A stretch of DNA of 64,000 bases from Hexactinellida sp. DTS-2022 (Eukaryota > Porifera > Hexactinellida): contig JAPNXP010000004.1 of the NCBI GenBank assembly GCA_028753945.1, forward strand, positions 2,852,001 through 2,916,000, read 5' to 3'. A program made the position numbers and the translations under genes. This document shows positions 58,030 through 64,000 of this stretch, in pieces (the first letter of the stretch is position 1; every line of letters begins with the position of its first letter). The notes under the pieces were generated by a model, which searched no databases, was not told the origin of the DNA, and saw only the letters and a program-made list of their open reading frames with translations.

Positions 58030-58763
58030 ATACTAATTTATAACATTTTTGTACGTGAACTAAGCAGATCCGGCGGTATTTTTCAGCAAACCGGTTCAAT
58101 ATGTCTTCTTCATCGACGGGGGTAAGTATATTGCAATTAACATGAAGCACCCTCAAGTCGCTACCCCGCTCTTCTGACATTGTCAAACGAAGGTACGATT
58201 TATTCCGTTTCAGTGCACTGAATGACCTTTCCGCCGACGAGCTCGATACAGGAACTGTAGCAGCTATTTCAATCGCTGTGCAAATAAGTGGAAATAGAAT
58301 CTTGTGTGGAGAAATGAAAACGCAAAATTCAGCAACGTCTTGGGAATTTCTTCCTCTCTCGTGAACATGTCCTTCATTAGAGCAATCTCAGATTCCACAG
58401 CAACCAAAATATCTCCACAAAACAAACCATAGTGTCTACAGAATGCATTGATATCAGCGACATCCAAGAACGTAAGACTTCCTGGAGAGAGAGCCGCAAT
58501 TCCATTGTACACTATCCGGTTCTCATTATTCATGAAGCGTCTATCGAGCTCTTTCGCGAGTGTGCGACACAGTGGCAAGAACAATCGATGTCGATACTCA
58601 TCTGGACTTTCAAAGTTACCAACATGCTCTCCTTCGGCTCTACGGACGCGGACGCTGCGCATACGATGAACTGGAGGTGCATGAAACTCACATTGGATGG
58701 TTAGCTCCATGGCTTCGCTCCAGATGCAGTTCCATACGGCGTCAGGTTGAGAGGTATTAAAAA
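58030..58763 (-). pseudogene. hAT transposase C-terminal part, frameshifted
   Basis: On the minus strand a segment (about 58763-58290) reads FNTSQPDAVWNCIWSEA, YRHRLFLPLCRTLAKELDRRF and, further on, ALMKDMFT. After a frameshift near 58290 it continues in the next phase with PLICTAIEIAATVPVSSSSA, ERSFSALKRNKSYLR, MSEERGSDLRVLHVN and EEDILNRFAEKYRR. The second part is the hAT C-terminal dimerisation domain with its ERSFSALKR signature; the first is the preceding helical region. The N-terminal zinc finger and most of the catalytic region are missing. A MITE interrupts the 5' side at 58764, and coding text can be traced only about 30 bases beyond it. It is a dead fragment of an autonomous element. 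Confidence 0.85.
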
Positions 58764-59194
58764 CAGGGTTCCCTGCTTTTTTGCCTTTTTTTCTCTCATC
58801 CTCCCGACCTCCCGCCAAACTTTTAAAACTCCCGCTTTTTGGAAATTGTTTATATATTTAGATTTTATGATAATTAAGTAAAATAACGGGATTTGTTTAA
58901 ATTATTCAAGTAAATTACTCAACCTACGAGCAACAAGTTTTTTTTTTTTCAAGTTTTTTTAGTTGTAGTTTTTAATTTTCAGTTTTTTTTCGAGTACCAA
59001 GTTTTTTCCTAATTGTAGATATCAAAACATACTAAATAATCATATTATATCGTTCTATTCATGATAGATTTAAAAAAATAGCATATATATTGAGTCTCCC
59101 GCTTTTTCATCTTCGACCTCCCACTTTTTGGTGAAACTCCCGCCAAAATTTGCAAAATCTCCCGCTTTTTTGTTTTCAGAGGTTGGCAACCCTG
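58764..59194. mobile_element. 431 bp TIR MITE (CAGGGTTSC ends, CCCGCTTTTT motifs)
   Basis: It starts CAGGGTTCCC and ends with the complement of CAGGGTTGCC. TTAAAAA borders both sides (58757-58763 and 59195-59201). Repeated CTCCCGCTTTTT and CTCCCGCCAAA words occur near both ends in the same orientation. It interrupts the hAT pseudogene. Confidence 0.75.
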
Positions 59195-59230
59195 TTAAAA
59201 AGTACTCGCTGAAAGTACTCAGCGCAACCC

Positions 59231-59316
59231 TAGCGCATAGATATCTATGCGCTAGCGCATAGATTACATAGATTATGCGCTAGCGCATAGGTACTTAGAA
59301 TATGCGCTAGCGCATA
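59231..59316. repeat. Cluster of TATGCGCTAGCGCATA palindromes
   Basis: The perfect 16 bp palindrome TATGCGCTAGCGCATA occurs three times, at 59246, 59274 and 59301, spaced 28 and 27 bp apart. A fourth, overlapping palindrome TAGCGCATAGATATCTATGC with its continuation covers 59231-59254. It lies between the hAT fragment and the Ulp1/KDZ region. Confidence 0.93.
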
Positions 59317-59727
59317 CAGACTTTGCGCAATTATACACTGGGGATACTCAATTAGATTTTCGTACACGATTTAGTTCATCTCTCTCAAAATTAATTATTT
59401 GTTATTTCTAAGGTCTAATAGCTTTTGTTTTTGTTTTATTGTTCATCCTAATAATGAAACGAAATCACGTTGGCAACCTATCTTCACAAAAGTAATTTCT
59501 GAGACAATTTTAAAGACTAGGAAATAAAACCACAGAATACGAATTTCAATCATGCAATCAGTTTCCAGCTAATACAGTGGCACAATCTAAATTGTCATGT
59601 GATTAAATTCTTAGCATCCTAACCGTTTCTATGACCAGTTGATATGTCAGCGGAAAGATCTAACCTGGAATAATCGCTGTCGAAATGTCTCATATAAATA
59701 AAAGAATGCGAAGACCAATTTATCAGA
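59317..59727. other. Spacer before the protease gene
   Basis: AT-rich DNA without a recognisable gene. ATATAAATAAAAG at about 59693-59705, just 5' of the first ATG of the protease gene, could act as a TATA-like element. If the Ulp1/KDZ pair is one transposon, its left end should lie in or near this stretch, but I could not find a matching right end inside the window. Confidence 0.3.
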
Positions 59728-60162
59728 ATGCCAAGAATCACTAAAGGAAACGCCAAAGAGCATCTCTTTGCTGCAGTACAATCGTTTACTCAACTAACTG
59801 GTGAACAAGTTGGGATCGTACTGACATGGAAAGGGAATTAGACTGTAATCGGGAAAGAACCATTCAAAGAGTATGTAAACGAACACCGGAGGGATATCCA
59901 AAAACCTCTGTTAACCACTACTCAGATAACAATACCGTCACCTCTACCACAATTATCGTCACCTCTACTACCAGTATCGTCATCTCTACTACCAGTACCA
60001 CCTCCACACTATCCTAAAGAGAAGGAAGTACTAGACTTGCTCGATTCTAGACTTGATCCATCCAGCATTCAATGGAGAGACTACGAAACTTTCTCTCTAC
60101 TGCAATCAGAAATTCTACTGGTAGGTATTCATTTTCTTTAAGTAATTAATACTTAACTAATA

Positions 60163-60579
60163 CAGTAGAACCTGCATAATCCGACACGTTGGGAAGAGAT
60201 ATATCTACCGGATTAAGGCGAATTCCGGATTATAGTGGGCATACCTGCCAACCTATTTGAGTAGTATCCCTGTACGGAGCTCCAATTTCCCCCTGTACAT
60301 TGGAAAAAATCTCTGTACACCCAAAAAATTTTATCTCGCTTATGTAGGGAAATTTCCCTACATGTGCGAGATAAACACTATAAGATTGATTAGGAATTGT
60401 TACTTTAACAAAATGCTACATTTTGAGAGTAAAGACATTTTTTAGGTTTATTTGACCTACAATCATTAATTTTGTCCCGACTTAAAATCCCTGTACAAAT
60501 GTAATAATTCCCTGTACTGTACAGGGAATCCCTGTACGGTTGGCAGGTATGAGTGGGTCGGATCACGCAGCTTCTACTA
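60163..60579. mobile_element. 417 bp Tigger-type MITE, TA TSD, with nested insert
   Basis: The ends CAGTAGAACCTGCATAATCC and TAGTAGAAGCTGCGTGATCC (complement) are inverted repeats with TA on both sides (60161-60162 and 60580-60581). Without the 312 bp inner element it is only about 100 bp. It lies in the presumed intron of the protease gene. Confidence 0.82.
60240..60551. mobile_element. 312 bp CATACCTGCC-family MITE, 6 bp TSD
   Basis: It begins CATACCTGCCAACC and ends GGTTGGCAGGTATG. AGTGGG lies on both sides (60234-60239 and 60552-60557). The subterminal words TACAGGGAATCCCTGTAC match the copies in the 54 kb stack. Confidence 0.88.
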
Positions 60580-61919
60580 TATAGAGTTTAATTTAATATT
60601 AATTTTTGTATATTCTAGATGGTAGGTATTGGTCAAAGAGATCATGTCCCAAATGGTGGGATCCAACTATCGAGTTTCGCAACCTTAAATCTGGATATAG
60701 TAAAGATATGCTGATAAAACTGACTTTAGCGTACAGAGCATCTCATTCTCTTACTTCTCCGATACGGGATAGATCACCTTATTCATCCCCTGCACATACC
60801 TTAGAATCTTATCCGAGTTCTCCATTATTGTCACCCCATCTGGTTTCTCAGATGTCAACAATTCTCCGCAACGTATAACACCGGATTCCACACATTCTAC
60901 TGTATCGGACTCCAGCTTATTTCAGGCTGCTGATTCTGACAGTTCAAATTTAGGCCAAGAGGTCGAGATATACGCAGATAGTTTGGATGGTAGTGACAGT
61001 AAGTGTAGCAGCGAACAACCCGAACCTTATTTTCCCGCCCGAAAGAGTATTTTTGAACCTCAAACAATAATAACTGTAAACCGCGACGACGACCTTGCAA
61101 CTGCTTTGAGTGAACTATCGGATAAAGATACTCTACTTACGGATACTACAATTCACGCGTTCATGGTATGTTAAATTTATTCGATTTCATCGGAATTCTT
61201 ACGCTAGCGTCTTATAAATTGCTAAAATAGTTTGGTTATTCATTAATCTTTTTTCATAGACTATTCTCCGTAATCAATTCCCTCGTGTTCGTGGCCTCCA
61301 AAACATTATTGAGAGTTATGCTGCTTATAAACCTCATCCACGAAATAGTATCCAAATTCATCATGACAACTCTAGGACACATTGGCTGGTTTCCTGTGCC
61401 GATCGTAATGGTGTGGTTAATGTATTTGATTCAATGTTTGATAAAACTACAGAGGAAGTTGATATCCAATTATCACAGATTTACCCTCAGAAACATTGGT
61501 TCAAGTATGTTAGACAGGAATTGCAACAACAAGTAGGCCCATCAGATTGTGGGTTATTCGCTACAGCTGTTTGCACGGCTCTTGTTATTGAAGTAAACCC
61601 TTCACAATGTGCATGGGATCAAAGCCAAATGCGCTCCCATCTGTCGAAATGTTTAATTCAACAAGATTTATCTCTGTTTCCAACACTTAAGAAGGCAATT
61701 CTTGTTCAAGTTATAAATAGGAAGTCTATGTCTTTCCGTTTGTATTGTTCATGTGCATGCCTGAATTTTTTAGTCAATACATGACCCAATGTATTGACTG
61801 CAAGAATTGGTTTCACAATCCCTGAGTCAATCTCCCTGATGCAAACCTAAAATGTAGTAACTTTACAGAAGTGTTTAAATGTCCTAATTGTAGCCCTATA
61901 GTTTGTTAATTGTAGTTCT

Positions 61920-61925
61920 TTTATT
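61920..61925 (-). terminator. Polyadenylation signal of the KDZ gene
   Basis: AATAAA on the minus strand, about 25 bases after the TAA stop at 61949. The position is usual for a compact 3' end. No equivalent AATAAA follows the + strand protease gene before the two genes meet. Confidence 0.5.
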
Positions 61926-61948
61926 TGGATAATGTATTACATTGTATA

Positions 61949-63771
61949 TTATAATTTATTTAATGTTTCTCTGTTGGTTTGACTTAGGAAATAACGAGTT
62001 GTATAGAATATATTTTCCACTTTCATATAAGACAACTGTGGAGAAATACACCGTAATCTAGAGTATAGCTGTTCACAGACTTGGGAGTTGATAGTTTTAA
62101 TTTCTCTTGTTTGAATACTTCGCATTGAGTAGCCTGGATTGCACTTGTGGTTGATGGAGTGAAATCGGTCAATCAAAAAAGTTGTCTTTCGAAATTGTCT
62201 TGGATCTCTAAAAGCCCAAATAGTTTAGTTTACAAGCAAATACGTATACAAGTACATAATGGTTATAGTGATAATTTGTACTGTACATATATACAATTAA
62301 TAATTAAAGTACTTAGTTACATTATTAGACATGTGTTGTGTAGATTGCACGCATTATCGTATATTAGGGGTATCATAAAGTACTGCATCAAAATGTTGAA
62401 GATTGTAACAGTCGATTCCCCTGAAGTCAGTATTTTAAAACCATAACATATACCATGACGGCAAGACATGGTTACCATTCCGGGGGATAGGATCTTATGT
62501 TTCGGATAAGTTTTCTTACATCCTTGTTTATCTTTTCGATTTTCAAGATCATAATTTGGCAATCTAAATAAATTAAACAATGGTTATACAAAACTATTAG
62601 ATTAACCTAATACATTACTCACCTGTATTGTTGTTCAAAAGCTGGAAAATAGTTGAAGTATTCCTGCTCAACGTAGACGCGAACAGGCTTTCTGGTTCTG
62701 CTAGTGTATAAATTTTCTACCTTATCAATTATTTTTAATAACAAACCGGAAACTAAAGGATGGAGACGGATTAATTCTGACGGCATTACTTGCACTTCGT
62801 AAGATAGAAAAAGAGGTTTGAAGTTTACCATTTTATTGTACAGCAGATCAATCACGCAAACTTTTCTCGGTATACCAACTGATAAATCGACAAATAATGC
62901 TAATTCTTCCTCATCCAAAATTGAAAACTGAAAAACTCCAGAAATAGGCTGAGTTGTAGACAGTTAGCTAAGAATCAATGAAACATGCTTATTAATAGGT
63001 TTATAGGTCATGTTTCCTCCGCTGTTAATAACAGTGTAACTGTTGGCTACATATTCATTAAAACATCCAGGGTCAAGATCCACCATTAAAATCCCGAATG
63101 CTTGTGGCGATAACCCATCTGTTGAGTAGTGTTGTAACGCTCTTCGCAGCTTGCTATTTGTGATCCATACGCGATTTTCCATTGGTATGTGCGCTATTTG
63201 GATATCTTCTTTCGGAACAGATTCAGTGGGAATTTCTTTATTAGCAGTTACACAAATTGGACAGGAAAAACACCGAGAATAATCAATAGCACTGAGTCTA
63301 AGGTAAGCATTCCAAGCTAAATGCATCGTGTGATACTTGAGAAAGTTGGTACTTCCCATTCTCTTCAATTTATTGTTTTTGGCACTATTAAGATTAAGAA
63401 AGTGATTATAGTAAAAAGTTCACCAACTTATAATTGCAAAATATTGAACTAAAATTACTATCTCTTTAAAATAAATACCTGACAAATGCATAAAGTGGAT
63501 TTCTTGCAGTCCTCATTAGTTCGCTATACTCATACAGCAGCCCGTAATGGATCAAGTAGTGGTCATTTAGGTTTAAGAGAAGATGTTCATGGCCTTGATA
63601 GCCTTGCTCACATTTACAAGGGCCATCACAGATTGATGTATAAACTAAATATATAATGTTAGTAACTATACTATTAAGCAGCACATAGAATGATAAATAC
63701 ATACCTCGGTGTTTGGGTAATAGTATTACGTCGCTTTCTGTATAAAGAATAATTCCTTTATGATGGGGCAC
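61949..63771 (-). CDS. KDZ-type transposase, multi-exon, 5' incomplete
   Basis: A minus-strand gene with introns at 63645-63704, 63385-63478, 62564-62622 and 62208-62320 (60, 94, 59 and 113 bp), all GT-AG. It matches the Kyakuja-Dileera-Zisupton transposase family. Landmarks in order: CDGPCKCEQGYQGHEHLLLN (cysteine cluster), SELMRTARNPLYAFVR, KYHTMHLAWNAYLRLSAIDY, CFSCPIC, YFNYFPAFEQQYR, LPNYDLENRKDKQGCKKTYP, LSPGMVTMSCRHGICYGFK, SGEST, LIYDNACNLHNTC, DPRQFRKTTFLIDRFHSINH, CNPGYS, INSQVCEQLYSRL. It ends at TAA 61949, with AATAAA about 25 bases further on (61925-61920). One TAA in phase at 62964-62966 is the only clear lesion, unless a non-standard intron removes it. The reading frame continues upstream to at least about 63790, so the N-terminus may lie outside the window. 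It is tail-to-tail with the Ulp1-like gene, 164 bp apart. Confidence 0.82.
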
Positions 63772-64000
63772 AGTGGGGCAAATACACCGATTAAGTGGAA
63801 AATTTTATATAAATAGAACTGCTCCTTAGCATTTTATTCTGATTCTGCACATTTTCATATCTATAAATTCAAAAAGTCGGCGAGTAGTAGTGATTTTATT
63901 AGGGTTACGATATCAATAAATGCAGCGTTTCAAGTATGAGCTCAAAATGATGATGAATTCACTAAAAAGTCGCTAAATATAACTTGTCAGAAATTTCAAT

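Follow-up and report, generated by a model that had tools for sequence, protein, structure and literature searches.

We analysed a window of 64,000 nucleotides from Hexactinellida sp. DTS-2022, namely C13:2852001-2916000 in a genome of 112.4 Mb and 18 contigs (here written as C and a number). Near its right edge a plus-strand gene, which we call the accessory gene, runs towards a minus-strand gene for a KDZ transposase, and both genes lie in one transposable element. The preliminary description of this DNA recognised a protease in the plus gene; it missed an NRF1-like domain, a PHD finger and arrays of palindromes at the ends. Given these, the plus gene probably codes for an end-binding accessory protein that carries a protease domain.

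Two convergent genes in one element

Searching the genome with window positions 60000-63900 returned the window copy and seven others, 90-96% identical in their main pieces, and these eight (the window on C13, and C2a, C2b, C5, C6, C11, C16a and C16b) were aligned with their flanks. We call them the window family. A second family, L040 (C1:12102500-12107999, with a relative L041 on C7 and a third copy on C18), shares this layout; its protease exon is 38% identical to that of the window family, and the three KDZ exons that were compared are 36-58% identical.

By homology the minus gene is a KDZ transposase. The two C-terminal exons of the window copy, when joined, match PF18758 (KDZ) at 1.6e-8 and 34.9 bits, the cut-off being 26.6; the joined exons reach 40.7 bits (2.7e-10) in C6 and 47.1 bits in L040, and such matches range from 1.6e-8 to 3.1e-12, while single exons stay below the cut-off. 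FDG or LDG, YDNAC, H..H..C and CEQ, the acidic residues and C/H motifs expected of a KDZ transposase, are kept between C6 and L040. The FDG segment, present in C6, has been lost from the window copy. Upstream of the KDZ exons the window has a sub-threshold cluster resembling CxC4, a family that owes its Pfam name to its occurrence with KDZ. The five exons that had been proposed on this strand are plausible, with the reservation that their splice sites, as in all our exon structures, were placed by eye from sequence alone, and that the 5' part of the gene lies beyond a 4,542-bp insert starting at 63769.

The C48-type protease exon on the plus strand, with its His, Asp, Gln and Cys, is indeed there at 61260-61784: H stands in THWLV (61377-61403), D in VFDSMFD, and the QQQ and the C in SDCG follow (61524-61565). 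All four residues are invariant when the window-family protease is aligned with its diverged relative in L040, whose C-terminal exon passes Pfam Peptidase_C48 (25.8 versus 20.7 bits). Structure prediction for the window protease exon alone gave no confident model (mean predicted local distance difference test score, pLDDT, 39.8). Beyond the protease part, most sister copies have an open plus frame that goes on to encode a PHD finger; this finger passes PF00628 in L040 (27.5 bits, cut-off 24) and falls below it in C6, of the window family (19 bits). A profile of three sequences found the PHD fingers of PHF2, PHF8 and BPTF as its closest PHD matches in the PDB, the best protease match being SENP5 (0.0036). 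The window family keeps Y, M and W of what we take to be the H3K4me3-binding cage. This continuation also bears on the 164 bp previously counted between the two stops. The count is correct for the window as it stands, but it arises because the plus frame is shifted there; with the PHD frame the stop falls, by comparison, at 61907-61909, and the gap is about 39 bp (49 bp in C6).

Both genes are present, at least partly, in all eight window-family copies. Terminal inverted repeats of about 0.45 kb in the family alignment, as expected for the KDZ superfamily, lie outside both genes and have CATGTATTAAAAAGTACTC and GAGGTATTAAAAAGTACTC as termini; both ends are present in six of the eight copies, and in C5 and C2b one end or both could not be located. 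The 8-bp target-site duplications are perfect in the window (CAGGTTGA), C2a (AGATTAAT) and C16a (TGAAAATT), match at seven of eight positions in C6 and C16b, and at six in C11. The complete sister C2a measures 5,970 bp and has terminal repeats of about 0.45 kb. The L040-family copies on C1, C7 and C18 have inverted repeats of about 98 bp, with a length of about 5.7 kb for the C1 element. Because terminal repeats and duplications enclose both genes, and all copies hold the pair, the two genes belong to one element, as had been proposed. The suggestion that element ends might lie between the two genes is ruled out by the common ends outside both.

The window copy spans C13:2910751-2921960, enlarged by three nested inserts. 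It was thus rightly said that its right part lies outside the window, but its ends are no longer in doubt: the right end is at C13:2921960. The search for a repeat partner and an 8-bp duplication that had been recommended succeeded, with the left repeat at 58751..59702 and a perfect duplication. The start earlier placed at 59728 has to be moved to 58751, the left repeat being interrupted by a 431-bp insert. That insert (58764-59194), considered as the element's own end, proved to be nested when the sister copies were compared. A lone window-family end at C13:2328737-2329252, 98% identical and without coding match in the window-DNA search, is a deleted or non-autonomous copy; the terminal-repeat search also matched weaker fragments on C1, C3 and C15.

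The pairing is not a peculiarity of this family. Three L040 exons used as queries gave 150, 125 and 145 matches in the genome, which were merged into loci and paired with the nearest protease or KDZ E-exon within 3 kb. In 98 of 117 KDZ loci the nearest protease lies within 3 kb and is convergent (96 of these within 800 bp), and no KDZ locus has one within 3 kb in another orientation; the chance expectation is about 0.007 per locus. This fixed convergent pairing throughout the genome rules out independent neighbours. One may still ask if KDZ copies merely have the protease gene as a neighbour, be it a separate element or a host gene. Copies with one gene only, which had been named as grounds for doubt, do not occur among the eight coding copies of the window family, yet elsewhere a partner within 3 kb is missing from 19 of the 117 KDZ loci and from 39 of the 136 protease loci. 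For the protease exon the best 150 of 241 candidates were scored, so unpaired KDZ loci may have unscored protease partners. Ulp1 domains are also known from several other transposon groups, according to the available part of the source (PMC2836005). Nevertheless, with the eight family copies and the 98 KDZ loci paired in a single orientation, and with common ends and target-site duplications around the pair in the window family, we give this explanation almost no credence.

Two groups of unpaired protease exons deserve mention. Five closely alike open protease-PHD exons (C1:1385174, C11:13619450, C11:14135545, C17:3344082 and C4:4633748) have no KDZ E-exon within 3 kb; at the sole locus read, L043, an NRF1-like domain lies upstream. 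Perhaps they are protease-only elements or domesticated genes. At C6:3826192, C13:3115890, C4:1188945, C3:829302 and other places there are C48-like exons with open frames of about 300-800 amino acids and no KDZ nearby, perhaps another Ulp1-bearing transposon group.

Table 1. Features of the window copy (window positions unless a contig is given)
Feature	Position	Strand	Basis
Left target-site duplication CAGGTTGA	58743..58750	.	identical 8 bp at right end, C13:2921960
Left terminal inverted repeat, begins GAGGTATTAAAAA; interrupted by nested insert	58751..59702	+	inverted alignment with right end, window and sister copies
Nested 431-bp insert, CAGGG...CCCTG ends between TTAAAAA repeats, splits left terminal repeat	58764-59194	.	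sequence
Three palindromes TATGCGCTAGCGCATA (starts 59246, 59274, 59301); NRF1-like sites, TA replacing central AT	59246..59316	.	0/300 shuffles contain any 10-bp palindrome three times
Accessory exon 1, NRF1-like dimerisation part; stop at 59839-59841 in window copy; splice site by eye	59728..60120	+	profile and alignment
Nested 312-bp miniature inverted-repeat transposable element (MITE) in intron 1, CATACCTGCCAACC ends, AGTGGG flanks	60240..60551	.	empty site in C2a
Accessory exon 2, NRF1-like DNA-contact part, KWWDPTIEFRNLK at 60651-60689; frame-shifted in window	60619..61165	+	profile and alignment
Probable start of C48 domain, LTDTTIHAFM, in exon 2	61136-61165	+	sequence
Accessory exon 3, with the catalytic part of C48/Ulp1 and the PHD finger at the C-terminus; frame shift ahead of PHD, stop at 61784 in window	61260..61909	+	sequence, profiles
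KDZ exon, motifs DRFHSINHKC and VCEQLYSRLR	61949..62206	-	open reading frame (ORF), relatives' alignment, Pfam
KDZ exon with YDNAC at 62338-62361	62335..62571	-	ORF reading, relatives' alignment, Pfam
KDZ exon, CPIC at 63243-63263; lacks the FDG segment seen in sister copies	62619..63419	-	ORF reading, comparison with sisters
More N-terminal KDZ exon(s), CxC4-like cysteine cluster CDGPCKCEQ at 63604-63633	63466..63768	-	PF18717 8.7e-4, below curated cut-off
Nested 4,542-bp Transib/RAG1-like element, CACAGTG ends, 5-bp duplication TGGGG; whole at C13:2915769-2920310	63769..64000 (start)	.	empty site in C2a

The three nested inserts are not part of the KDZ element. The MITE has at least 31 other copies among the best 40 of 823 candidates in the window-DNA search, and the 431-bp insert is hAT-like by its ends. 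One frame of the largest insert matches Pfam RAG1 (6.5e-5, below cut-off) and another matches PDB 6pqn, a DNA-mediated transposase (6.9e-4), which is HzTransib, and CACAGTG reads like the RAG signal heptamer. By these likenesses the insert is a Transib/RAG1-like transposon.

The NRF1-like domain and the palindromes at the ends

Upstream sequence was taken at ten loci beyond L040, and the joined domain was obtained from nine of them, exon 1 not having been found in L048. A profile of eleven families, the window family included, matches NRF1 in the PDB (8k4l, 9.5e-11, profile positions 12-139), the next unrelated match being at 0.095; exon 2 of L040 has NRF1 as its sole PDB match (0.0032). Joined exons of two families were tested against PF10491, and both exceed its cut-off of 23.5 bits (L051 with 1.2e-11 and 45.1 bits, L049 with 1.7e-8 and 34.9 bits). 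Short pieces do less well: exon 2 of L040 alone gives 17 bits, below that cut-off, window-family exons scanned singly against Pfam give no NRF1 match, and the N-terminal exon alone finds nothing in Pfam and at best 0.51 in the PDB. Genome-wide, PF10491 has 61 matches, that is, the host NRF1 at C1:12370499-12371152 (3e-50) and 60 weaker ones. For 50 of the 61 a protease lies within 4 kb downstream on the same strand, and the 11 others include the host NRF1; one further match has a protease nearby in a different arrangement.

In human NRF1, R206, N242 and R244 read bases, according to the part of the source available (PMC10810270). Our alignment has arginine at the R206 position in all eleven families and asparagine at the N242 position in seven. 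The host NRF1 keeps both. If the R244 position is read by eye without gaps, it is K in the window family, L044, L045 and L046, the same as in host NRF1.

Palindromes are repeated 5' of exon 1 in most families. They are GCGCATGCGC in L044 (2), L046 (6) and L047 (2), GCACATGTGC in L040 (4), CACATGTG in L042 (8), GTGCATGCAC in L049 (2), CCGCATGCGG in L050 (5) and TGCGCTAGCGCA in the window (3), to which the nine repeats TTCGACAGTCGAA of L051 may be added. Their spacing is 21-24 bp in most families, 26 in L049 and 27-28 in the window. Significance was judged from 300 dinucleotide shuffles by the repeat count of the commonest 10-bp palindrome: the observed count was reached by none of the 300 for L040, L046, L047, L049, L050, C16a and the window, and by a single one for L044. 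The same measure gave no signal in L042 and L051, where the repeats are not even 10-bp palindromes, in C2a, which has a single copy each of two palindromes, or in L043, L045 and L048.

The link between palindromes and ends is seen best in L040. Across 112 Mb there are 18 tandem pairs of GCACATGTGC, every one of them at an end of an L040-family element: the three copies have six ends, and each end holds three pairs. For GCGCATGCGC the genome has 151 tandem pairs, against none in the backward control; among the matches listed, all on C1, 13 of 17 array clusters have a protease or NRF1-like match no more than 5 kb away, and such zones make up 1.6% of C1. It could be argued that the accessory protein is mainly a transcription factor, which binds the terminal palindromes to switch on both genes and has no role in cutting or pairing ends. 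NRF1 activates transcription via promoter GCGCATGCGC sites, as far as the accessible text goes (PMC10810270), and the arrays lie a few hundred bp at most upstream of exon 1. The equal arrays at both ends of L040 elements, however, fit end recognition as well, and both roles can coexist. In our opinion a mainly transcriptional role of this kind is possible but doubtful.

Family by family, the residues of the domain and the palindromes can be matched. In the ungapped reading, N-x-K families with a known site (the window, L044 and L046) have a GCGC palindrome, human NRF1 has N-x-R with GCGCATGCGC, and N-x-Y families (L040 and L042) have CACATGTG; L047 is an exception. This matching, across few families, suggests that domain and site changed together. 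It also bears on the idea that host NRF1 binds the ends, such that the elements mimic host promoters and their own domain is a competitor or a decayed capture. The host does have an NRF1 with both contact residues, and exact GCGCATGCGC occurs in the terminal arrays of three sampled families (L044, L046 and L047). Other families, on the contrary, have different palindromes (GCACATGTGC, CCGCATGCGG, GTGCATGCAC) together with domains of their own that differ at contact positions, and the NRF1-like domain is still recognisable in eleven of eleven aligned families. We therefore regard binding by the host protein as unlikely.

The proposed transposon and its relation to known systems

Taken together, we consider it quite probable that the element is a two-gene, convergent, cut-and-paste KDZ DNA transposon whose accessory protein, with NRF1-like, Ulp1/C48 and PHD parts, binds the element's ends. 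The KDZ transposase, with its CxC4-like cluster, would cleave at the ends and integrate with a stagger of 8 bp. The NRF1-like domain would most likely bind, as a dimer, the palindromes that recur at a period of 21-28 bp inside the terminal repeats; the usual period is about two helix turns. The bound accessory protein would mark and pair the ends, assembling them with the transposase. Its PHD finger may tether the complex to H3K4-methylated promoter chromatin, and SUMO on silencing factors or on the transposase may be removed by its protease.

Besides the unpaired loci, several observations speak against this proposal. The window protease exon alone stays below the Pfam C48 cut-off (0.014, 15.7 versus 20.7 bits), and the C6 sister exon gives no Pfam C48 match. 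R244 is kept in none of the eleven families as aligned, five of which have a gap there. L047 has GCGCATGCGC sites without the N242 residue, and the repeats of L051 are unlike the NRF1 site. No array was seen in L043, L045 and L048 within the sequence examined, which is short in L043 (233 bp) and L045 (84 bp) and in L048 was taken without exon 1 having been found. Four of the 17 listed C1 arrays lie far from any element match. Finally, the window copy is broken: exon 1 contains a stop, exons 2 and 3 are frame-shifted, the transposase has lost its FDG part and there are three nested inserts; other copies of the family are damaged too. Among window-family copies the ratio of nonsynonymous to synonymous substitution rates (dN/dS) runs from 0.25 to 1.53 with few differences, so that selection is demonstrated on neither gene there.

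Comparisons beyond the window family are as follows. Close pairs within other families give dN/dS of 0.20 to 0.98, again with few differences; between families the values are mostly saturated, one protease pair giving 0.11 and one KDZ pair 0.18, both with dS above 2. L041 and L040 share 98.1-99.7% DNA identity, and the C18 relative is 100% identical in the three searched exons. Since these copies are near-identical and the three exons are open, the L040 family appears to have been active recently.

The four distant C1 arrays (C1:3942018, 11492501, 11521952 and 15117184) consist of GCGCATGCGC sites with no listed protease or NRF1-like match within 290 kb. They are candidates for non-autonomous elements or host sites.

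Which known transposons does the element resemble? Zisupton, in which Boehne and colleagues reportedly found an Ulp1 SUMO-protease domain in 2012, has a single long gene of several exons, and Ulp1 lies towards the end of that gene. In the present element, by contrast, the Ulp1 domain is not in the coding sequence of the transposase but in a separate convergent gene, together with an NRF1-like domain and a PHD finger. In these features Zisupton is still the closest known system, by its 8-bp duplications and by its Ulp1 domain. A KDZ transposase, terminal repeats and 8-bp target-site duplications are common to both, according to the available part of the source, which gives 8 bp for Dileera too and 7 bp for Kyakuja (PMC12730594).

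In layout only, the element resembles RAG-like transposons. ProtoRAG and RAG1/RAG2 have two convergent genes between terminal repeats, one for a DDE transposase and one for a PHD-bearing accessory protein, as far as the accessible text describes them (PMC7204232). The element does not belong to that group: its transposase is KDZ and not Transib/RAG1, the core of its accessory protein is NRF1-like plus Ulp1 and not kelch, and its duplications are of 8 bp instead of 5 bp. Ginger1 shares Ulp1, which stands at the C-terminus of its transposase, and Ginger1-9_HM has Ulp1 plus PHD (PMC2836005, available in part). Its transposase, however, is Gypsy-integrase-like and the domains are fused to it, and the accessible part of its description has no NRF1-like domain. 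No transposon with an NRF1-like domain is reported in the literature searched, Repbase and most subscription papers being outside that search.

The likeness to the NRF1/EWG/P3A2 proteins extends to the order of the dimerisation and DNA-binding parts, to R206, often to N242 and, in some families, to GCGCATGCGC itself. Unlike them, the element's domain sits in one protein with Ulp1 and PHD, it occurs in many diverged copies of a mobile element, several sites other than GCGCATGCGC go with it, and R244 is not kept as aligned. It is conceivable, and we offer it tentatively, that NRF1 arose by domestication of an end-binding protein from this transposon lineage, or that both share one ancestor. In such a history the GCGCATGCGC promoter motif would originally have been a recognition site at transposon ends, and the other families would have kept evolving pairs of domain and palindrome. 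With two NRF1 sequences in an unrooted set, the comparison is compatible with either direction, from NRF1 to the element or the reverse.

The analysis connects a mobile element with the fold of a conserved animal transcription factor, and it shows, outside RAG, another transposase whose convergent partner bears a PHD finger. Ulp1 domains, long noted in transposons, get a concrete setting, namely a protease on a protein whose proposed targets are the ends of its own element. Moreover, the families supply a natural set of paired proteins and palindromes, from which one could read, and with which one could test, how DNA specificity evolves.

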